Origin: Candidatus Methanophagales archaeon | GTDB taxonomy: Archaea > Halobacteriota > Syntropharchaeia > Alkanophagales > Methanospirareceae | Length of the DNA stretch: 64,000 nucleotides | Direction: 5' to 3' | Assembly (NCBI GenBank): GCA_030602585.1 | Contig: JAUVZJ010000006.1 | Location: 1 to 64,000, forward strand | Shown here: piece by piece, positions 3,740 to 16,048 of the stretch | Position numbering within the stretch: position 1 is the first letter of the stretch | Layout: each line of letters starts with the position of its first letter | The notes under the pieces: generated by a model | The model's database searches: none | The model's input: the letters and a program-made list of their open reading frames with translations, nothing else | Told to the model about the DNA's origin: nothing | Position numbers and translations under genes: made by a program

Positions 3740-6700
3740 ATGGAGAACATTGCCAATGTCATGGATAGGCATTCCCTGATGGAATTCCTGAACCGCTTGA
3801 ATTATCAAACCGAAGAGGTCATCCTTGACAAAGAAATAGACTTAGACCTGCCAGAACGAGCTAAGGACATTATTAAATCCATTGCTCTCATAAGCGATTA
3901 CAAAACTGACGGTACGCAATTCAGGATTTATATTATTGAAGCGGAACGCTTACGCCGAACTGACATAAGAACTGTTCTGGAACCTTTCTACACCGGACAC
4001 CCGCAGGTAAATACCCTTTTTGTTTTTACCCCCGAGAAGTATAATCCACTTGTTCTCGTAAGTCCTCAACGAGTTCTTTCCCCGGAAGATAGGACAAAGA
4101 CAAAACTGAAACTCCGTATTCTCCGGATAGATCGGGATAATGTTTATCATACTGACTTGGAGGTTTTAGAAGCCTTGAAACTCACTCCGGGCGAAGCGGA
4201 CCCTTCAGAAATCTGGGCAAAACATCGTGACGCCTTCAGCATCGAGAAGGTAACAGAGGAATTCTTCAAAACCTATAAAGACAAATTTGACCATCTTAAA
4301 GAAGCTTTAGAGTTGAATAAGAGAAAAATCATATTTTTTAAAGACGAGAAATATCTTGAAACTTTCGCACAACGCATTCTCGGAAGGCTGATTTTTCTTT
4401 ACTTCCTGCAAAAGAAAGTCTGGCTAAACAAGGATAAGAAGTTCGTAGGCAATTTGCTGGATAGAGCCGAAGAGGAACATAAGAATTTTTACAAGGAGTT
4501 TTTAGAACCGCTATTTTTTGAGGTGTTGAACGAGCAAAGACATAACAGCGAGTCGCCTTTTGGAACAATTCCGTATTTAAATGGCGGGCTTTTTGAAAAG
4601 GATTATAATTTCGAGGTAAAGTTGCCAAACGGGATATTTAGGGAGATAATAGATTTCTTTAACCGCTATAACTTTACGGTTCAGGAGAACACGCCGTTAG
4701 AGGTGGAAGTGAGCCTTGACCCTGAACTGCTTGGTAAAATGTTTGAAAATATGCTTGCTGAGAAGGAGAGAGGCGAGAAGGGAACTTTCTACACTCCTCG
4801 CCCTATCGTGCATTATATGTGCAGGGAGAGCTTGAAAGAATATCTTGCCGCTTTTACAGATATTGCGAGGTATAAAATCCTGACGCTCGTGGAAGATAGT
4901 AGCACAGGGGATTTATCTGGTGATGAAGCCGAGAAACTTTGCAAAGCGCTGGATGAAGTTCGGATTCTCGACCCGGCAGTGGGTTCAGGTGCTTTCCTCG
5001 TGGGAATGATGCACGAGATTATCAATCTAAAAACAGTCCTGACGGATAAATTAAAGATAGCGGTAACGAATGCAGAGCTTAAAAGAGAGATTATTAAATC
5101 CAATCTTTATGGTGTGGATATAGAACCGGAGGCGATTGAGATTGCCAGACTGCGACTCTGGCTTTCGTTGGTAGTAGATGAAGAACTTGACGACGTGGAG
5201 CCATTACCAAACCTTGATTATAAGTTGCTCGTGGGAAACAGCCTCGTAGAGAGTTGGCGAGGAAAGAAATTACTGGGAAAGGAGGTGTATCAGAAAACCT
5301 TCGGAGAAGATGAAACACTGAAATTGATTGAGGAACTCAGGAATCTGAAAGAGAAACTTCTGAATGAAACGAACACGGATGAGAAGAAGAAACATCGTGA
5401 GCGTTCAGAGGAAATAGAATGGCAGTTAATTGAGAAGGGACTAAGCGAAGAGGCAGAATGGAAAACAAGGCGGGCACTTGAAATAAGTGGAAAATACAAA
5501 CAATACGAGCATCCAGAGCGTAAAATGTCGGCAAAAGAGAAAAAGGAATTGAAGAAATTGAGAGAAGAAGCGGAGAATGCGGGAAGATTTTTGGAAGATA
5601 TAAAGAAATCAGGCGAAAAAGCATTTTTCCTGCCTCAGATACATTTTGCCGAGGTGTTCACCGAAAGAGGAGGTTTTGATATTGCCATTGCCAATCCGCC
5701 GTACGTAAGAACGCAGAAACTCTCTAAATTACCATATCGAGACGATTTAGAACTTCATTTTGGCTTTATTGATGACTTCTACGTGCATTTCACTTTCCGC
5801 GCTTTTGAGCTCGTAAGACCGAAGGGGATCGTAACGTTCATCACGTCGGATACCTATCTCACGCTTGCATGGAAAGAGAGGATGAGAGAATTTTTGCAAG
5901 ATAATCGGATTAGAAGGCTTATACTCACGCCAAAAGCTTTTCGGGCAACGGTTAATACTGCTATTTACATCACTCAGAAAGAACATCTTGCGGATTATAA
6001 CTTCACGTTCCTGGATGCAAGAGAGGTTAGTGGCAATGAAGAAGGGAACTGGGAAGACAAACTCATCGTGTTTGAGGGATTGAAGGAGGTAAAGCAATAC
6101 GATACGCAGAATCCTGTAAGGATCGGCGATAAGGAATTGGAAGTATCTTACAGTCGACAGGCAGATGTCGGGCAGTTCCGAGTGCCTGTGGAACTATACA
6201 AGAAAGCGATTAAGCGGGTATTTTTCTCGCCAACAGCGAAGAACTTGAAGTTGTACGAGAAGTTCATGCCGATAATGAAAGAACTTCATGAGAAGTGGTG
6301 GGATAAGATAAAATCAAGCAAGGATATACAGAAGAACAAAAAGGAAATAGAGAAATATTTGAAGATGTTAAAGCCCGGCGACGTTACTCTTTTGGGATTG
6401 ATTACAAATGGTGGGGTAGGCTTACAAACATCAGACAATGGAAGGTTTTTAGCAGTGCTCGAAGGCACGAAAGAGGCGAAAAGGATTGAGGAAAGGCTTG
6501 AAGAGTTTGAAAGGAAGTGGGAGAGGAAAGAGCCGAAAATATATGAGAAATGTCAGGAATTGTTGGCAACCCATTCCAGAAACGATGCGCTGGATAAACT
6601 GAGAAAGGAATTTGAAGAGAAGATGTTAGGGTTTCCAAGAGGGTTCATCTACAAGGTGATCAAGAAAGAGGACGTTTTTGATGCGGCTTCTTATCTTGAG

Positions 6701-7453
6701 GGTCTTGCGCCTGAGATAAGGGATGTTATGCGAAGGGTGATAATTTTTGGTGGTATTCCAGAAAAAGAAAGCGATGTGAAAAGTCTGCGGAAGCTACCGA
6801 AGTTGCCTGATGATTTGAAAACGTTGGATACGGACTTGAAAAAGAAGGTGGAGGAAGAGTATGGGAAGCTGAAAGAAAAAGGTAGATGGATAGCTTTTAC
6901 CAGAGGTGGAGAAGCTGAAAATATATACTTGACCCTTACGGATCGATTCATAGATTGGTCACGAGATAGTGTGAAGTGGCTATTCAATAATTCAGGAAAA
7001 AAGGGTTCCGGAATGCCGGTCATAAGAAATCCACACTATTATTTTACTGAAGGCGTAACTTACATAGACGTTGGTGGAGCCGAGATAAAAGCGAGAATTT
7101 TGCCTTCTTCAATCTACGACCACACAGCACATTCTTTTTTCCCTGACGAGAAGGACATCTCACCAAAGTATCTCTTAGGAATACTGAATACTACTTTTGC
7201 TTCTTATTTTGCAAATGAATATTTGAATCATACAATGCACTTTGAACTTAACGATATCCGATTGTTTCCCGTTGCCATTCCAACCGAGAGCCAGCGAAAA
7301 GAGATAGAAAGCCTCGTTGACAAAGCGATTGAGATACAAAAGAAGCGGTATGCCTCTGATAAAGAGGAAGAGAAATCGGAGTTCTGGAAAGAACTTCAGA
7401 GGGTGCAGGAACGAATAAATGGGGAGGTGGAGGGGATATATGCGGGAAGTTGA
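3740..7453 (+). CDS. Eco57I/type IIG-like DNA adenine methyltransferase (restriction-modification)
   Basis: Motif I 'ILDPAVGSGAFLVGMMHEI' and catalytic 'IAIANPPYVRTQKL'; about 1240 aa. Confidence 0.9.
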   Translation: MENIANVMDRHSLMEFLNRLNYQTEEVILDKEIDLDLPERAKDIIKSIALISDYKTDGTQFRIYIIEAERLRRTDIRTVLEPFYTGHPQVNTLFVFTPEKYNPLVLVSPQRVLSPEDRTKTKLKLRILRIDRDNVYHTDLEVLEALKLTPGEADPSEIWAKHRDAFSIEKVTEEFFKTYKDKFDHLKEALELNKRKIIFFKDEKYLETFAQRILGRLIFLYFLQKKVWLNKDKKFVGNLLDRAEEEHKNFYKEFLEPLFFEVLNEQRHNSESPFGTIPYLNGGLFEKDYNFEVKLPNGIFREIIDFFNRYNFTVQENTPLEVEVSLDPELLGKMFENMLAEKERGEKGTFYTPRPIVHYMCRESLKEYLAAFTDIARYKILTLVEDSSTGDLSGDEAEKLCKALDEVRILDPAVGSGAFLVGMMHEIINLKTVLTDKLKIAVTNAELKREIIKSNLYGVDIEPEAIEIARLRLWLSLVVDEELDDVEPLPNLDYKLLVGNSLVESWRGKKLLGKEVYQKTFGEDETLKLIEELRNLKEKLLNETNTDEKKKHRERSEEIEWQLIEKGLSEEAEWKTRRALEISGKYKQYEHPERKMSAKEKKELKKLREEAENAGRFLEDIKKSGEKAFFLPQIHFAEVFTERGGFDIAIANPPYVRTQKLSKLPYRDDLELHFGFIDDFYVHFTFRAFELVRPKGIVTFITSDTYLTLAWKERMREFLQDNRIRRLILTPKAFRATVNTAIYITQKEHLADYNFTFLDAREVSGNEEGNWEDKLIVFEGLKEVKQYDTQNPVRIGDKELEVSYSRQADVGQFRVPVELYKKAIKRVFFSPTAKNLKLYEKFMPIMKELHEKWWDKIKSSKDIQKNKKEIEKYLKMLKPGDVTLLGLITNGGVGLQTSDNGRFLAVLEGTKEAKRIEERLEEFERKWERKEPKIYEKCQELLATHSRNDALDKLRKEFEEKMLGFPRGFIYKVIKKEDVFDAASYLEGLAPEIRDVMRRVIIFGGIPEKESDVKSLRKLPKLPDDLKTLDTDLKKKVEEEYGKLKEKGRWIAFTRGGEAENIYLTLTDRFIDWSRDSVKWLFNNSGKKGSGMPVIRNPHYYFTEGVTYIDVGGAEIKARILPSSIYDHTAHSFFPDEKDISPKYLLGILNTTFASYFANEYLNHTMHFELNDIRLFPVAIPTESQRKEIESLVDKAIEIQKKRYASDKEEEKSEFWKELQRVQERINGEVEGIYAGS

Positions 7454-7557: not shown

Positions 7558-9567
7558 ATGGGCAACATGGATATAGGTAGAGCTAAAAGCACAAGTCACT
7601 ACACGATGACGATATCTAGGACTACGGTAGACAAGCTCGGCATCAAGTTGTACGATAAGGCATCTGCAGTAGTTGGAGAACTTATCGCGAACTCTTACGA
7701 CGCCGACGCAGAGAACGTAACGATTAAGATGCCTCTTAATAGATGGTTAGCCACTAAATCAGGTGGTGATGTAGTTGATCAGGGGTTTGAAATCTTAGTA
7801 GAGGACGACTGACATGGAATGACCCCCGATGAGATCAATGAGTTTTATCTTAGGGTTGGAGCTAACGCTAGAGAAGACGACAGGAGAGGGCCTTATTCAC
7901 GTGATAAAGAACGGGCAAGAATGGGCCGTAAGGGTATTGGAAAACTGGCACCATTCGGTATCTGTAAAACTATCGAGGTCCAAACCGCAGGCGAAGAAAA
8001 TGATGGAGATAACTTCAGGGTTGCACACTTCGTCATGAACTTCGACGACATTAACCAAGAGACGGATGAACCTTATCACCCAGAAATCGTTTCCGACGAC
8101 GGCACCTTATCTCAAAAGAGAGGAACGATAATAAAACTTCGGAATTTTTATCACAGACGCACCCCTGATGAAGAGACTTTTCACCGTCAGATTGCTAGGT
8201 CTTTCGGTACTAAACTGCCGGATTTTAAAATAAAAATTGAAAACACAGAAAACGGGAACGTATCTGAGATAGGCGAATTAGATGTCGAGATCGAAGAGGA
8301 GACAAAAATAAATGTTGATGATAGGCCCCCCGTGACAATGGAGGACGGAACAACTTTGCCGGTGAAAGGTTGGGTGGCTTACACGAAGCATCCTTACAAA
8401 AACGAAGAAGTTGCAGGTGTCAGAATTTACACTAGAGGGAAGATAGGAGCAAGTACTAGGGACTTCGGTCTGAAGGCAGGATTCACAGGTGAGCATACTC
8501 TTCGGTCTTATCTTGCTGGCGTTATACATGCAGAGTGGCTGGACAAAGACGATGGCGAAGATCTCGTACACACTGGTCGACAGGATATCCTTTGGGCTTC
8601 CGAGGAAGGAACTGCGTTTATGAAATGGGGGCAGCAACTACTAAAAGAGCTGGCAACAAAATCTAGAACCCCTCTGAGAGAAAAAGCGTGGCGTGTGTTC
8701 TTAGAGCGGTCTAATTTGGAAGAAGAAGCAAAAGAACGATTTCACGACAAAGAGGTTGTGAAGCAAGCTATGGTTGTTGGAAAAGTCATAGGCCAAGTTA
8801 CCTCTTTAGATGACCTAACAGATGAAAGTTATACACAAAAAATCAAAGAGTTAGTCCTGACAATAACGCCTCACAAGATGCTGGTGGACAAATTAAAAGA
8901 AGTCGAAGAAAAGGGAGTGGGGACTCCTTTAGGTGTTATCTCTGCTATCTTCAACGACGCCAAGGTTGCAGAAGCGTCCTCACTTGGTCAAGTCGCCATG
9001 GTACGAATTGACATCGTAGACAAACTGGAGCAGCATCTTCAATCAGGAGCATCGGTAGATGAAAGTGCACTCCAAAAATTGATAGAGAGTGCATCTTGGC
9101 TGGTGGATCCCAGGTGGACTGTCTTACAAGCTAATAAGTCGTTCGAAACCCTCCGCTCTGCGTTTGAGACTTGGTACCGAGATCAACATGGAACAGAAAT
9201 AACGACGACAACGTTAAGCGGTTTGCAGAGACCTGACTTTGTGATGATGCACGTAGGGCGCGGTGTGGAAATTGTGGAAATTAAGAGGCCAAGACACGCG
9301 CTTATAGATGAAGAGTTTGAGAGACTGCGATCGTATATTGGGGCGTTGGATAGATTTCTGGAAGCAAATCCAAATTTTAAGGAGGATTTTCCAAAAGTAC
9401 ACGCCACATTGATATGTGACAGTTTAAGATTAGGAGCAACCCCTCAACTGGCCTACGATAAGCTGAAAGATGACAGAAAGTTAAAAAAGAAAACTTGGTG
9501 GGAAATCTTGCAAGACACGAAGAAAGTTAACCAAGATTTCCTCGATGCCCGCAGTCCATCTGAGTGA
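7558..9567 (+). pseudogene. MORC/MutL-like GHKL ATPase fused to a C-terminal PD-(D/E)xK-like nuclease, interrupted by an in-frame TGA at 7810-7812
   Basis: Two ORFs (7558-7812, 7819-9567) in the same frame. 'GELIANSYDADAENVTI' (N box), 'VEDD*HGM' (DxGxG motif with TGA at the G), 'RKGIGKLAPFGI'; C-terminal 'RPDFVMMHVGRGVEIVEIKRP'. Confidence 0.8.
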
Positions 9568-9590
9568 TAACTCATTTTAGTCTACCAATT

Positions 9591-10286
9591 TTATTGTTTA
9601 TCACTTAGCATTTTCAATGGGTATTTGCATAGGCGTACTAAAGGGCAAACGTCACAAAGAGGTCGTTTCTTACAGACCATTAATGCGAAGTCTAGTAGTG
9701 CCTCGTGATAAGTCGCTGCTCGCCCTTTTGGAACGAGTTTCTGAGAGATCTTTTTGATATCATCGTTATTTACCCCACAGGACTTTGGTAAGTCAAATAT
9801 TCTAGTTAAAACGCGAACTACGTTGGTGTCGACAATTGGAATATCTCGACGAAAGCCAAAACAGAGAATCGCAGAGGCAGTGTAAGACCCCACTCCTGGA
9901 AGTTGCATCAGCTCGTCTCGATTATTTGGTACGTTTCCGCCGTACTTCTGGCATATTGTCTTCACTGCGCTGACTATCCAAGGCAGCCTCTTTTTCAATC
10001 CCATTGGACGGCTGATTTGCTCGAGTTGTGTCAGATCCGCCGAAGCAAGTTTTTCAGGTGTTGGGAAACGTGTAATGAAAGAAGGATAGAATTTAGCGAC
10101 CCTGTCGGCGGGAGTGCGTTGGAGGAAGAACTCTGCTACGAGCACGCGGTAAGGATTAGGATTCACCCTCCAGGGGAATGTCTTTTTATTACTTCGATGC
10201 CAAACGAGCAAAGTCCTCGTGATAGTTTGTTCGCGTGATTTCACGATTTCACCTCTTCCGTTACGATAAATGGCCGTACTCCTCAA
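9591..10286 (-). CDS. HhH-GPD DNA glycosylase of the MutY/Nth superfamily, probably Mig-like thymine-DNA glycosylase
   Basis: 'LMQLPGVGSYTASAILCFGFRRDIPIVDTNVVRV' HhH-GPD plus Asp, [4Fe-4S] cysteines 'CKKRPLCDVCPLVRLC'; overlaps the m5C methyltransferase gene by 26 nt. Confidence 0.85.
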   Translation of the reverse strand: MRSTAIYRNGRGEIVKSREQTITRTLLVWHRSNKKTFPWRVNPNPYRVLVAEFFLQRTPADRVAKFYPSFITRFPTPEKLASADLTQLEQISRPMGLKKRLPWIVSAVKTICQKYGGNVPNNRDELMQLPGVGSYTASAILCFGFRRDIPIVDTNVVRVLTRIFDLPKSCGVNNDDIKKISQKLVPKGRAATYHEALLDFALMVCKKRPLCDVCPLVRLCKYPLKMLSDKQ

Positions 10287-11367
10287 CGAAGTATCGAACT
10301 AAGTTTTGGATGAAGAGCACCGGAACGGCATTTCCAATATACCGATCGGCCGAGGCAGTTTCGGTAGGGAAAACGAAGTGGTCAGGGAACGTCTGGAAGC
10401 GTGCAGCCTCTCTTGGAGTAATGCCTCTGTCCTGTTCAGGGTGTATGAATCGCCCGCTACTGGGACAAGTACAACGAGACGTTATAGTGGGCGATGGCTG
10501 GTTCCACCACATTCTACCGTAAACGTTCTCGGCTCCCCCATTTCTGAGTTTTCGGTGGCATCTAAGCCAAAGCCGTCGTGAAAGGTCTTTTCGGCTCCCG
10601 CCGTCCTTGGGAACGTTTTTAATTATTTCGAGTACTTTTTGAGTGTGCTTACGAGCTTTGTGATTTGGAATTACGGAATCCCGCTCACCCGGTTCGAGCG
10701 GTGGAAGATCAGCTATGGTCTCCCTCACGGTAACACACGGCAGCTTATCCCCCTCGTCAACGAATTTTGGATCGGAGTGTGTAGGTGGTGGCATTAATAG
10801 CTCTTCTTTACCGTTTGTGCCTTCCACGCTGAAAGCTATTACTCTCTTACGGTGTTGAGGAACTCCGTAGTCAGCAGCGTCGAGAATTTTGCAAACAGAC
10901 TCGTAGCCCATCTCGTGCATTCGTTTGAGGTATAGGTCCAGGTACCTACCACCTTCAAGCGTGGCGATACCAGGAACATTTTCGAATAGCACGACTTTAG
11001 GGCGAATCTCACGAACCCGCTTGAGGAACGCCACGATGAGGGCATCTTTATCGTCTCCCTTTGGCAGTCCTCGAGTCCGCCGAAGACTGCTGAAACTTTG
11101 GCAGGGAGGGCACCCCACGACAAAATCTACATCGTGTTTTTTCAGTCCGTAGTGTTTTAAGATCTCGCTACCTTTTACGTGCTTTAAGTCACCACAAATT
11201 GGTTTTAAGTCCAGATTCTCCGGGTAAATTTTACACGCGGTGGAGTCGATATCGACAGCACCTACGATCCGACAACCAGCGAGTTCAAGACCCAGAGATG
11301 CGCCTCCACATCCGCAAAAGAGGTCGATCACATTGTAACACGGCGATATTATTTTCGACATTTGCAC
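10261..11367 (-). CDS. DNA (cytosine-5)-methyltransferase
   Basis: 'VIDLFCGCGGASLGLELAG', 'GCPPCQSFSSLRR', 'VLFENVPGI', 'PQHRKRVIAF', 'QTFPDHFVF...IGNAVPV' - complete set of m5C MTase motifs. Confidence 0.95.
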   Translation of the reverse strand: MQMSKIISPCYNVIDLFCGCGGASLGLELAGCRIVGAVDIDSTACKIYPENLDLKPICGDLKHVKGSEILKHYGLKKHDVDFVVGCPPCQSFSSLRRTRGLPKGDDKDALIVAFLKRVREIRPKVVLFENVPGIATLEGGRYLDLYLKRMHEMGYESVCKILDAADYGVPQHRKRVIAFSVEGTNGKEELLMPPPTHSDPKFVDEGDKLPCVTVRETIADLPPLEPGERDSVIPNHKARKHTQKVLEIIKNVPKDGGSRKDLSRRLWLRCHRKLRNGGAENVYGRMWWNQPSPTITSRCTCPSSGRFIHPEQDRGITPREAARFQTFPDHFVFPTETASADRYIGNAVPVLFIQNLVRYFVEEYGHLS

Positions 11368-11463: not shown

Positions 11464-14400
11464 ATGACCGAAGGACTCCCCGACATCATTGACAACTCAG
11501 AAGGCAAAAAACTTGGAGCGGTGCTGAACCAACTGCTGGAGCAAGGCGAGCCAGTAGTCCGCATCGTAACCGCATATTTCAACCACGAAGGTTTTGCCGT
11601 TTTAAAAAACGGGCTTGAAAACGCAAAAGAGTTCAAGTTACTACTTGGAAAGGAGCAAGAACGTGAATTTGTCATTGGCAATAGATTGTGGGACGAGATA
11701 GAAATAGCAATGAATAAGAAGGAAACGCCTCCACTATTGAATGAAATCGTGGATTTTATAAATCAGGAGAAAGTTGAGGTCAGAGCGCTAAAGTTCAAAA
11801 ATAAATTTTTGCACGGAAAAGCATATATCATTGACGGTATTCCGGTGATGGGTGGCGTTGGAATCGTTGGTTCCTCAAATCTCACCTACGCAGGTCTTAC
11901 CGCAAATTACGAACTGAATGCGGTTTTGAAACAAGAATCCGCAGTGAAGGAATTAATAATATGGTTTGATGGCTTCTGGAACGAAGCCGAAGATTATAAA
12001 GATGAACTTCTCGACATCTTCACGGCTTTTACTTCCAAATACACACCATACGAAGTTTACGTCAAAATTCTATACGAATATTTCAGAGACCGGTTCGAAC
12101 TGGAAATAAGTCCAAAGGAGGAGACGCCAAGCCCGATTATTCTCGCGGATTTCCAGCACGATGGCTATCAGAATGCGAAGGATATACTCGAAAAATACGG
12201 TGGCGTAATACTTGCCGATTCTGTTGGGCTCGGCAAGACTTACTTAGCTCTTAAACTCCTCGACGATTATGCCTACAAACTACGGCAAAAAGCGCTTCTT
12301 ATTTGTCCCGCACAACTTAAAGAAGTCCTATGGGAGCCCGAACTCAGGCGTGCAAGCATACGTGCAGACATCGAGAACATGGAGTTCGTGGGCAGAGATT
12401 CGTTCAGCGGTGAGATTGAGAATTATGCAGACTATGACCTCATCGTAATAGACGAATCACATAATTTCAGAAACGCAAAAACAAACAGGTGGGAGAATAT
12501 TTTTCAACTTCTCACCACTGGAAAACCCAAGAAATTGATTCTTCTAACTGCAACTCCTGTTAACAATTCCGTATTTGACCTTTACAACCAGCTCAGACTC
12601 ATCGTAAAGGATAACGATGATTTTTTTGCAGGGAGTGGAATAAGAAATCTTAAAGGATATTTTCAAAAAGCCGAAGCGGATAAGGAAAATCTTTACGATA
12701 TTCTTGAGGAAATTGCGGTAAGACGAAGCCGATACTTCATAAAAAAGAATTATCCTGATGCAGAAATAGATGGAAAAGCCGTCCAATTTCCAGAAAGAGA
12801 ACTCCATACCGTCAGATATAGCCTTGAGAAAAGTTATAAAGGGCTATACAGAGAGGTTGCCAGCACAATTGAAAACCTCTACCTTGCACCGTACAATCCA
12901 GAAGCTTACAGAAAAGGGATGGTAAGTCCTGAGTTTGAGGGACTTAAAGATAGGCTGCGGAAAGAAGGTTTGAGCGAAAAAGACGCACACAATTATATGA
13001 TGAAACTCGGTAGGGGCACAGCACTCGTTCAGATTATGAAAACCCTGTATCTAAAACGACTTGAAAGCAGTATTGAAGCCTTAAAAATAAGCCTTGTAAG
13101 GCAAAGAGATTTTCAGAAAAAATTCTCGCAGCTTTTGGAGAAAAATAAACTTCTGGATTCTTCTACATATCGCAAATTCTTTACGTGGAATGGGGTGGAT
13201 GACCAAGAGAACGAGGTTGATGTAGAAAAGGCGATTTCACAACTCCCTGAAGCTGACCCGAATCTTTACGACTTAGACACGTTCAAGAAATTCGTGAGTA
13301 AAGATGTAAAAGTGCTGGATGGCATAATCAAGAAACTCGAAAAGATAAAGGTTCAGGAGGATGACAAATTAAAAGAGTTAAAGAAACTTCTTGTTGGTGA
13401 GTTAAAGGGCAATAAAGTTGTCGTTTTTACTTATTTTAAGGATACAGCTCGCTATCTTTACCACCAATTAGGAGGAAGACTTGAAGATGGCAAGCGTTTG
13501 CCAGAAGGTGAAAGTTTCCTCAGAGAACTTGGTCATGAGCGCATCAGTATCGTAGATAGTATTGTTGACCCAAGAGAGAGAAAAGACCGAATCATTCGGT
13601 TCGCACCAGAGGCAAACGCGACAAATGAAGAGATAAAGGATTCTATAAAGGGAACAGCCCGTGAAATTGACCTTCTGATTAGCACTGACGTTTTGAGTGA
13701 GGGACAGAATCTACAGGATTCTGACACGGTGATTAACTACGATCTACACTGGAATCCTGTGAGAATGATTCAACGTGCAGGTAGAATTGATAGAATAGGG
13801 TCGCCATACAATAGGGTATTCAGCTACAATTTCAATCCCGAAGATGCGCTTGAAGATATTCTTCACTTAGTAGAACGCATTTACAATAAATTAGAAGGTA
13901 TAAATCGAAGCGTTGGACTGGATTCTTCGGTTATGGGTGAGAGACCCAATCCACAAGATTTCAATGCCATACGGATGATTGCACAAGAAGATAAGAGTAT
14001 TTGGGACGAACTTGAGCAATTATCAGAGATAGATGTCGGTGAATTTTTAAAACAGGAACTTATTGACTTCATAAGACGTATTGGAGAGGAAAAACTGAGA
14101 CGCATTCCGCTTGGGATTGGCAGTGGTATACGAAGCGAAGGGCGGAAAGGGCTTTTTGCAGCGATAAAAGACGAGAAAAATAACCGCCATTTCTGGCTAT
14201 TCTACGATATAGGGAAGAGCACCATTTTAGACAGGAAACTTGAGGTCATCAAGCTTATTCGATGCCGAGAGAATGAGAAGCGTGTCGAACCCGACTTTGA
14301 TGTGTATGCAATTCTGGAAAAACTGAAAAAACATATTGTTAACCAAACGAGGGTAGTGAAGCATAGACTTTCTGTTTTACCACATCCGCAAAACCATGTC

Positions 14401-14661
14401 ATGAATTGGCTACAAGCATTGCCTCCTTCAGAGGATCGAAAACTGCTTATTGACTATTTTTCAAAGCCTCTGAGTGGATTGCAGATTAGGGAGCTAAGAC
14501 GGTTGTGGCGAGAGAATAGGCAGAATAGTGAAGAAAACCTTCCCGCTATTTTACATCAGTTTGCTGAGACACATCCGCACATCATCGAAGTTCAGCCCTC
14601 TTCTATTTCTGAAATCTCTGAGGAAGACCTTCAACTTGTCGGGTGGATTGCACGGGTATAG
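11464..14661 (+). CDS. SNF2-family helicase with N-terminal phospholipase D-like nuclease domain
   Basis: PLD HxK-like 'LHGKAYIIDG...GIVGSSNLTYAGLTANYELN'; helicase 'ILADSVGLGKTYLALKLL', 'DESHNFRN', 'LTATPVNNS', 'STDVLSEGQNLQDSDTVINYDLHWNPVRMIQRAGRIDRIG'. Confidence 0.92.
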   Translation: MTEGLPDIIDNSEGKKLGAVLNQLLEQGEPVVRIVTAYFNHEGFAVLKNGLENAKEFKLLLGKEQEREFVIGNRLWDEIEIAMNKKETPPLLNEIVDFINQEKVEVRALKFKNKFLHGKAYIIDGIPVMGGVGIVGSSNLTYAGLTANYELNAVLKQESAVKELIIWFDGFWNEAEDYKDELLDIFTAFTSKYTPYEVYVKILYEYFRDRFELEISPKEETPSPIILADFQHDGYQNAKDILEKYGGVILADSVGLGKTYLALKLLDDYAYKLRQKALLICPAQLKEVLWEPELRRASIRADIENMEFVGRDSFSGEIENYADYDLIVIDESHNFRNAKTNRWENIFQLLTTGKPKKLILLTATPVNNSVFDLYNQLRLIVKDNDDFFAGSGIRNLKGYFQKAEADKENLYDILEEIAVRRSRYFIKKNYPDAEIDGKAVQFPERELHTVRYSLEKSYKGLYREVASTIENLYLAPYNPEAYRKGMVSPEFEGLKDRLRKEGLSEKDAHNYMMKLGRGTALVQIMKTLYLKRLESSIEALKISLVRQRDFQKKFSQLLEKNKLLDSSTYRKFFTWNGVDDQENEVDVEKAISQLPEADPNLYDLDTFKKFVSKDVKVLDGIIKKLEKIKVQEDDKLKELKKLLVGELKGNKVVVFTYFKDTARYLYHQLGGRLEDGKRLPEGESFLRELGHERISIVDSIVDPRERKDRIIRFAPEANATNEEIKDSIKGTAREIDLLISTDVLSEGQNLQDSDTVINYDLHWNPVRMIQRAGRIDRIGSPYNRVFSYNFNPEDALEDILHLVERIYNKLEGINRSVGLDSSVMGERPNPQDFNAIRMIAQEDKSIWDELEQLSEIDVGEFLKQELIDFIRRIGEEKLRRIPLGIGSGIRSEGRKGLFAAIKDEKNNRHFWLFYDIGKSTILDRKLEVIKLIRCRENEKRVEPDFDVYAILEKLKKHIVNQTRVVKHRLSVLPHPQNHVMNWLQALPPSEDRKLLIDYFSKPLSGLQIRELRRLWRENRQNSEENLPAILHQFAETHPHIIEVQPSSISEISEEDLQLVGWIARV

Positions 14662-14746
14662 AAAAACAATAGCTAAAGAAGAAATATCAAATGGATTTTT
14701 AAACGCAGATATTTGCGGTGTTTCGCATCTCATGTGGGGGAAATTT

Positions 14747-16048
14747 ATGAGGGAGAGCAAGATGAAAGAAGAGCCGATAATGAAGGGATTTGGGGTTCAG
14801 AGGAAAAGAAAAGGCAGGGAAAAGCTGATTGTATATACAGATGGAGCAAGCAGAGGAAACCCCGGACCTGCTGGCTTCGGTATTGTGATATGCGATGAGT
14901 CGGGAAAAATAGTAAAAAAATATGGAGAATTTATTGGCAACGCAACGAACAACATTGCAGAATACCGGGCATTGATAAAAGCATTAGAACTGGCGAGCAG
15001 TTTTCCAGTAAGCGAAATAAAATGCTTTTCGGACAGCGAGTTAATGGTTAGGCAACTTAATGGTGAATACAGGGTGAAAAACGAAAAATTAGGTGAGTTA
15101 TTTCTTCAGGTAAGAGAAAAAGAGAAGCGATTTGAAAAGATAAATTATTTTCACATGCCGAGAGAGGAAGACCTTATAAAAAGGGCGGATAAATTAGCTA
15201 ATCTCGCAATAGATGGGAAAATGTCTGAGGAGAGCGAATTAGAGAAAAGAAAGGAAAAAGAAATAGCGAAAGTGAAAGGCGATGAAGATGCTATGGATTA
15301 TTATAAAAGGGGCAAGGATTTATTTTTAGCTTACAAGCACGACCTATCGCCTGAGCGTGTGAAGGAAATCGAGTCACTGCTTAGGAAAGCAATAGAACTA
15401 AATCCCAAGCTGTGGGCTCCTCATTACTTCTTAGGCGAGTTATTCTATTTGAAGAAGCGATTTCCTGATGCAAAAGCGGAATTTGAGAAAGCTCTTGATA
15501 AAAAACCGGATAGTGTGCCTGCCAAGTATTATTTGACTCAAATTAGCAGAATTGAATCTGGTATTTCATTTCCAAGAGATTTAGATGAAGTTAAAAAAAT
15601 GGCAAATAACCCGGTGTTGCTAAATCACGCATTGATAGAATGGTTTGAAAATACCCTTAGAGAACTGATTCAGGGAGTATTAAGGGATGCGTACGGAGAA
15701 GAATGGTGGTGGGAAGGAGTTCCAAGCGATGTGAGGAAGAAATATGGAGAAAGAGTTCAAGAAACTCGGTTAAAAGAGGAAAGGGGACTGCCCGAATTGT
15801 ATTTTATTGACTTTTATGATTATGGAAAGATTATCGAGGCTAAGACTAATAAAGGGGTCTTCAGTTCTTATATGGAAAATCCGAAAGAGTGGAAGAAGAG
15901 ATTAGACGATTTGGAACCAATCCGAAATGCAATAATGCATTGCAGAGGGCAATATCTTTCTGAGGAAACAATGTCAAGACTGAAGGAAAGCTGCATTGAA
16001 CTACAAAAATTAATTGAGAAAGTGAGGAAAGGTGCTTTTCAGAAATGA
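14747..16048 (+). CDS. RNase HI-like domain + TPR + C-terminal HEPN-like (Swt1-type) domain fusion protein
   Basis: 'LIVYTDGASRGNPGPAGFGIV...TNNIAEYRALIKAL...FSDSELMVRQLNGEY...RADKLANLA' (RNase HI); TPR-like 'NPKLWAPHYFLGELFYLKKRFPDAKAEFEKALDKKPDSVPAKYYLTQI'; C-terminal 'IRNAIMHCRG' (Rx4H). Start revised from 14528 because the longer ORF overlaps the helicase. Confidence 0.75.
   Translation: MRESKMKEEPIMKGFGVQRKRKGREKLIVYTDGASRGNPGPAGFGIVICDESGKIVKKYGEFIGNATNNIAEYRALIKALELASSFPVSEIKCFSDSELMVRQLNGEYRVKNEKLGELFLQVREKEKRFEKINYFHMPREEDLIKRADKLANLAIDGKMSEESELEKRKEKEIAKVKGDEDAMDYYKRGKDLFLAYKHDLSPERVKEIESLLRKAIELNPKLWAPHYFLGELFYLKKRFPDAKAEFEKALDKKPDSVPAKYYLTQISRIESGISFPRDLDEVKKMANNPVLLNHALIEWFENTLRELIQGVLRDAYGEEWWWEGVPSDVRKKYGERVQETRLKEERGLPELYFIDFYDYGKIIEAKTNKGVFSSYMENPKEWKKRLDDLEPIRNAIMHCRGQYLSEETMSRLKESCIELQKLIEKVRKGAFQK

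Follow-up and report, generated by a model that had tools for sequence, protein, structure and literature searches.

Why does a putative restriction gene, open in every other part of its frame, carry a stop codon at an invariant glycine of its ATPase motif? The window analysed here, a stretch of 64,000 nucleotides, is contig C69 of the metagenome-assembled genome (MAG) of a methane-oxidising Candidatus Methanophagales archaeon, hereafter G000 (2.05 Mb, 89 contigs, 92.7% complete). An earlier note on this DNA had placed a TGA within the run GAG GAC GAC TGA CAT GGA ATG ACC, and this is indeed what positions 7801-7824 read, in the frame shared by the ATG at 7558 and the terminal TGA at 9565-9567 (Table 1). 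Its description of an otherwise uninterrupted frame of 670 codons holds as far as the interruption is concerned, the forward-strand frame being open except for one TGA, but the size has to be corrected to 669 codons plus the stop. That the frame bears no other decay also agrees with our analysis, the remainder being open and nearly identical to an intact homologue described below. The stop site occurs only once in the G000 genome. Because coding potential is high upstream as well as downstream of the TGA, and homology runs through the stop over the whole length, the frame is more than a chance overlap of frames.

Table 1. Coordinates of the interrupted gene, of its neighbours in the window, and of further premature stops in G000.
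Feature	Position	Strand	Remarks
Eco57I/type IIG-like methyltransferase	3740..7453	+	upstream neighbour, separate system
BbrUII/HgiDII-type restriction gene (putative), interrupted	7558..9567	+	GHKL ATPase with C-terminal PD-(D/E)xK motif; 669 codons if read through
N-terminal piece, 84 codons	7558..7812	+	holds N-box ELIANSYDAD and D83
In-frame TGA, codon 85	7810..7812	+	invariant Gly of DDGxGM; GGA in intact homologue
Remaining ORF, 582 codons	7819..9567	+	starts at ATG = Met88; re-initiation needed
PD-(D/E)xK-like site	9235..9285	+	D560 (RPDF) to E574-I-K576; from alignment
HhH-GPD DNA glycosylase, MutY/MIG-like (LPGVGSYTA)	9591..10286	-	intact
Cytosine-5 DNA methyltransferase	10261..11367	-	intact
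PLD + SNF2 helicase	11464..14661	+	downstream neighbour
TGA at Gly, ketopantoate reductase PanE, codon 12	L021:5611 = G000:C8	-	third Gly of GAGALG; Gly in twelve aligned relatives
TGA at Gly, CheC-like gene	L052:2687 = G000:C39	-	two tandem paralogues with Gly
TGA at Gly, multihaem cytochrome c	L148:11306 = G000:C73	+	four or more paralogues with Gly
TGA at likely Gly, GT2 gene	L045:1063 = G000:C32	+	family pattern and one weak paralogue
TGA, PIN gene	L037:750	-	ancestral residue not assigned
TAA at Glu, AlbA_2 gene	L044:2194	-	
TAG at Gln, aldolase-like frame	L028:9804	-	
TAA at Lys, transposase-like frame	L028:345	-	

The gene product matches the GHKL ATPase family in Pfam (HATPase_c_3) and a type II restriction enzyme model in PADLOC. 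The NCBIfam profile NF050001 (BbrUII/HgiDII) covers the intact homologue from residue 15 to 664 (E=1.1e-68), scoring 232 bits against an equivalog cut-off of 550, and the gene thus appears to be a relative of the BbrUII/HgiDII enzymes below equivalog level. The three GHKL motifs, namely the N-box, the DxGxG motif and the GxGxxG lid, form invariant columns in 10 homologues, and the window copy has its TGA at the DxGxG glycine. Towards the C-terminus, an RPDF...EIK motif, in which D560 and K576 are invariant and E574 is nearly so in the homologue alignment, may be read as a PD-(D/E)xK nuclease site. A sequence search of the PDB returned no relative, and an AlphaFold run on a 4-sequence alignment gave a model too poor for use (mean pLDDT 36).

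The resemblance to the BbrUII/HgiDII enzymes comprises a full-length profile match below the equivalog cut-off, the GHKL motifs, a D...ExK site at the C-terminus and a C5 methyltransferase neighbour, whereas the window gene differs by its score, its stop codon and an adjoining MIG-like glycosylase. According to PMC5867850, M.HgiDII (GTCGAC) and M.BbrUII are methyltransferases that form 5mC. Restriction-modification loci in which a GHKL ATPase accompanies helicases and cytosine methyltransferases were reported in 2008 (Iyer et al., PMC2292703), and the window likewise has a GHKL ATPase gene beside a cytosine methyltransferase and SFII helicases, as with the MORC/paraMORC ATPases of that study. 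The gene family is already known, so that the window copy is a broken new member of it.

Pairing of the restriction gene with an adjacent C5 methyltransferase is found at several homologous loci, and the Deinococcus locus additionally has a Vsr endonuclease. Mig.MthI of Methanothermobacter is a MIG-type T:G mismatch glycosylase encoded beside a C5 methyltransferase. The HhH-GPD gene of the window similarly adjoins its C5 methyltransferase directly, and its LPGVGSYTA motif has a Tyr as in MIG; unlike Mig.MthI, it is called MIG-like from sequence resemblance. Farther downstream, after the PLD-SNF2 helicase, an ORF at 14528-16048 (+) encodes RNase H, TPR and Swt1-like HEPN domains; its true start is probably further in, because the ORF overlaps the helicase gene. 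Avoidance of GTCGAC, which enzymes of the BbrUII/HgiDII type cleave and their partners methylate, was set aside as uninformative. In sampled contigs the site is about fourfold rarer than the maximal-order Markov estimate in G000 (12 vs 45), but it is also about threefold rarer (9 vs 31) in G001, a genome of the same genus in which no GHKL enzyme was found.

The nature of the change was addressed by comparison with homologues. An uninterrupted copy, 98% identical and with GGA at codon 85, lies on contig C118 of G030 (Methanophagales MAG CSMAG_2436), which belongs to another genus of the same family; a codon alignment of the two genes shows 25 differing codons, of which 13 are synonymous and 11 non-synonymous, the remaining one being the stop. 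The 10 homologues aligned comprised G030, two Cenarchaeum copies, G043 (same phylum), Halobaculum, Rubrobacter, Deinococcus, Acinetobacter, Pseudomonas and Streptococcus. Glycine occupies the codon-85 column in 10/10, and D83, G85, G87 and M88 are invariant, which bears out the earlier assignment of the TGA to the conserved glycine of the GHKL DxGxG motif; no deviating residue pattern was seen. None of the homologues aligned is split, and a pattern scan of IMG/VR for the stop site gave no match. Because G030 has GGA and all 10 homologues have glycine, this full-length BbrUII/HgiDII relative has undergone one derived substitution, GGA>TGA, in line with the proposal that one substitution explains the split.

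Among the 51 family genomes searched, only G000 and G030 have a full-length copy, the remaining matches being weak and partial. DNA identity between these two genomes reaches 95-100%, mostly 98-100%, over window positions 7668-10268, falls to about 91-95% on either side and to 77-90% further out. Because identity in this tract exceeds that of its flanks, the restriction gene and the glycosylase seem to belong to a segment that passed between genera, by exchange or conversion, not long ago, and it is in G000 that the stop originated or was miscalled. Within the gene, which is otherwise 98-100% identical, differences from G030 cluster at window positions 9286-9306 (codons 577-583), just after EIK, where 6/7 codons are changed (KRPRHALI vs KKPLHALK); this looks like a small conversion event.

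Is UGA then a stop codon in this organism at all? Among 899 ORFs of at least 150 codons (1.22 Mb of G000), 387 terminate with TAA, 338 with TGA and 174 with TAG, and the open length beyond TGA is similar to that beyond TAA or TAG, and to that in G001. In 193 genes compared between G000 and G001, GGA faces TGA at only 1 of 61,569 aligned codons. A genome-wide change of the UGA code was rejected on stop usage and on this ortholog codon comparison. The earlier note had listed readthrough among the possible causes and proposed a search for UGA recoding machinery, but neither tRNA-Sec nor selD, the pair that marks a selenoprotein-encoding genome, gave a match above cut-off in G000, selenocysteine at this TGA was rejected on that ground, and TGA behaves as an ordinary terminator. 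About 28 tRNAs found in 60% of the genome include no UCA anticodon, and a genome-wide pattern search for the 3' halves of Gly-type tRNAs returned two only, with anticodons UCC and GCC and none with UCA. The known UGA=Gly lineages are bacterial, the Absconditabacteria and Gracilibacteria (PMC8629427). G000 resembles them in having TGA at conserved glycines in several genes, but it does not show the two marks of this code (table 25): TGA is often used as terminator rather than disused, and no UCA tRNA-Gly was seen in these searches. We know of no description of UGA=Gly, complete or ambiguous, in archaea.

Premature stops elsewhere in G000 were surveyed as homology across in-frame stops in coding-like frames, over about 60% of the genome. 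As most of what an unfiltered stop scan gave came from antisense and non-coding frames, a coding filter was applied, and several matches were then discarded by eye. In the part surveyed, about 5/9 premature stops within coding frames have TGA in place of a glycine codon (Table 1), and at least three of these, probably four, lie outside the window gene. The affected residue in PanE is an invariant Rossmann glycine; in PanE, CheX, PIN and AlbA_2 one Pfam domain bridges the stop. From codon usage, GGA>TGA should make up 5% of random nonsense changes, which gives P = 4e-5 for at least 5/9, or 4e-4 for at least 4/8 without the prompting case, values to be taken as a guide only since the nine cases were collected manually and post hoc. 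All five TGA-at-Gly sites fit a G>T change, and 3/5 have the CGG>CTG context, compared with 16% of GGA codons. This context resembles that of oxidative G>T change, CGG being associated with oxidative library damage. No overall G>T excess was seen between G000 and G001 orthologues, a comparison of limited power in which G/T differences are symmetric (non-synonymous 185 vs 168; synonymous 218 vs 234). Stops were absent from all 44 Radical SAM domains and from the best 150 GT2 domains listed in a family-wide search. A further GT2 domain, at G000:C1:20023-20505 (-), has two in-frame TGA. A double TGA on G000:C4 (L017), which at first resembled a Gly-Gly pair, was rejected, as the MRP/ParA-type gene there (MIISVASGKGGTGKTT) has its true start downstream of it. 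That TGA recurs at glycine could reflect a G>T bias, chance or weak glycine suppression.

We consider that the window gene is probably a recent loss-of-function nonsense allele of a restriction subunit whose protective partner is retained. In this scheme a single recent G>T would have made UGA of the Gly85 codon in the GHKL G1 motif (DDGxGM), the gene affected being that for the restriction subunit in a BbrUII/HgiDII-like type II restriction-modification module. Translation would end after 84 residues with the ATP site incomplete, so that neither ATPase nor nuclease would be made and restriction activity would therefore be lost; re-initiation at ATG 7819 would yield 582 residues, from which the N-box and D83 are missing. 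Since the methyltransferase would still protect the DNA, loss of restriction would be non-toxic, and the glycosylase would likewise remain able to repair the T:G mismatches that arise when 5-methylcytosine is deaminated. Restriction lost with methylation kept is the safe direction of decay for a restriction-modification pair. The methyltransferase and glycosylase frames are intact beside the stop-bearing gene, TGA serves as a normal terminator in G000, and this genome does harbour nonsense alleles of dispensable genes, single nonsense codons being present in other accessory genes. With no further damage in its frame, the allele would be young. Recent inactivation of a restriction component, which the earlier note had listed among possible causes, is thus supported by the full-length NCBIfam match, the intact methyltransferase and the lack of further decay.

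That same lack of damage says that the event is either recent or not real, and the main rival is a consensus base error, or a minority-strain base, in the MAG, the population having GGA and a working gene. The excess of TGA at glycine, with one case in metabolic PanE, suggests a common process that could be technical, and it argues against inactivation; PanE is expected to matter for CoA synthesis, and the shared G>T direction and CGG context point the same way. On the other side stand the balanced G/T counts when orthologues of G000 and G001 are compared, the 44/44 Radical SAM domains without stops, and the paralogous or accessory nature of several affected genes, where real nonsense codons are expected. 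We regard a base error as possible but less likely than inactivation. The TGA-at-Gly excess would also fit a suppressor tRNA that inserts glycine at UGA weakly or partially, UGA remaining a normal terminator as well, so that translation would run through the stops in the restriction gene, in PanE and in several others. This is very unlikely in view of the 338/899 ORFs terminated by TGA, whose read-through lengths are ordinary, the single TGA facing GGA among orthologous codons, where many would be expected if TGA meant glycine, the lack of a UCA anticodon among about 28 tRNAs from 60% of the genome, the two Gly-type tRNAs with UCC and GCC, and the restriction of known UGA=Gly lineages to bacteria (PMC8629427). 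Finally, the same-frame ATG 6 nt past the stop could point to a programmed or functional split into 84 and 582 residues through re-initiation, or to a reversible on/off switch. We rate this as the least probable reading, since the homologues are all unsplit, the substitution destroys the invariant glycine itself, ATG 7819 is the conserved Met88 of the motif and is present for that other reason, the site has no slippery tract, and phase variation does not usually work by point substitution.

The interest of the locus lies mainly in the unexplained recurrence of TGA at glycine, which matters more, if upheld by reads, than the restriction gene by itself. If upheld, it would mean either that a public reference MAG contains a base artefact of oxidative type, or that G>T mutation or suppression of UGA is real in the organism. 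Taken alone, the locus offers an ordinary and familiar pattern, in which the restriction gene dies first and the methyltransferase survives, seen here one mutation after the event. Moreover, a second genus of this archaeal family has a near-identical restriction gene, which indicates that the module moves.
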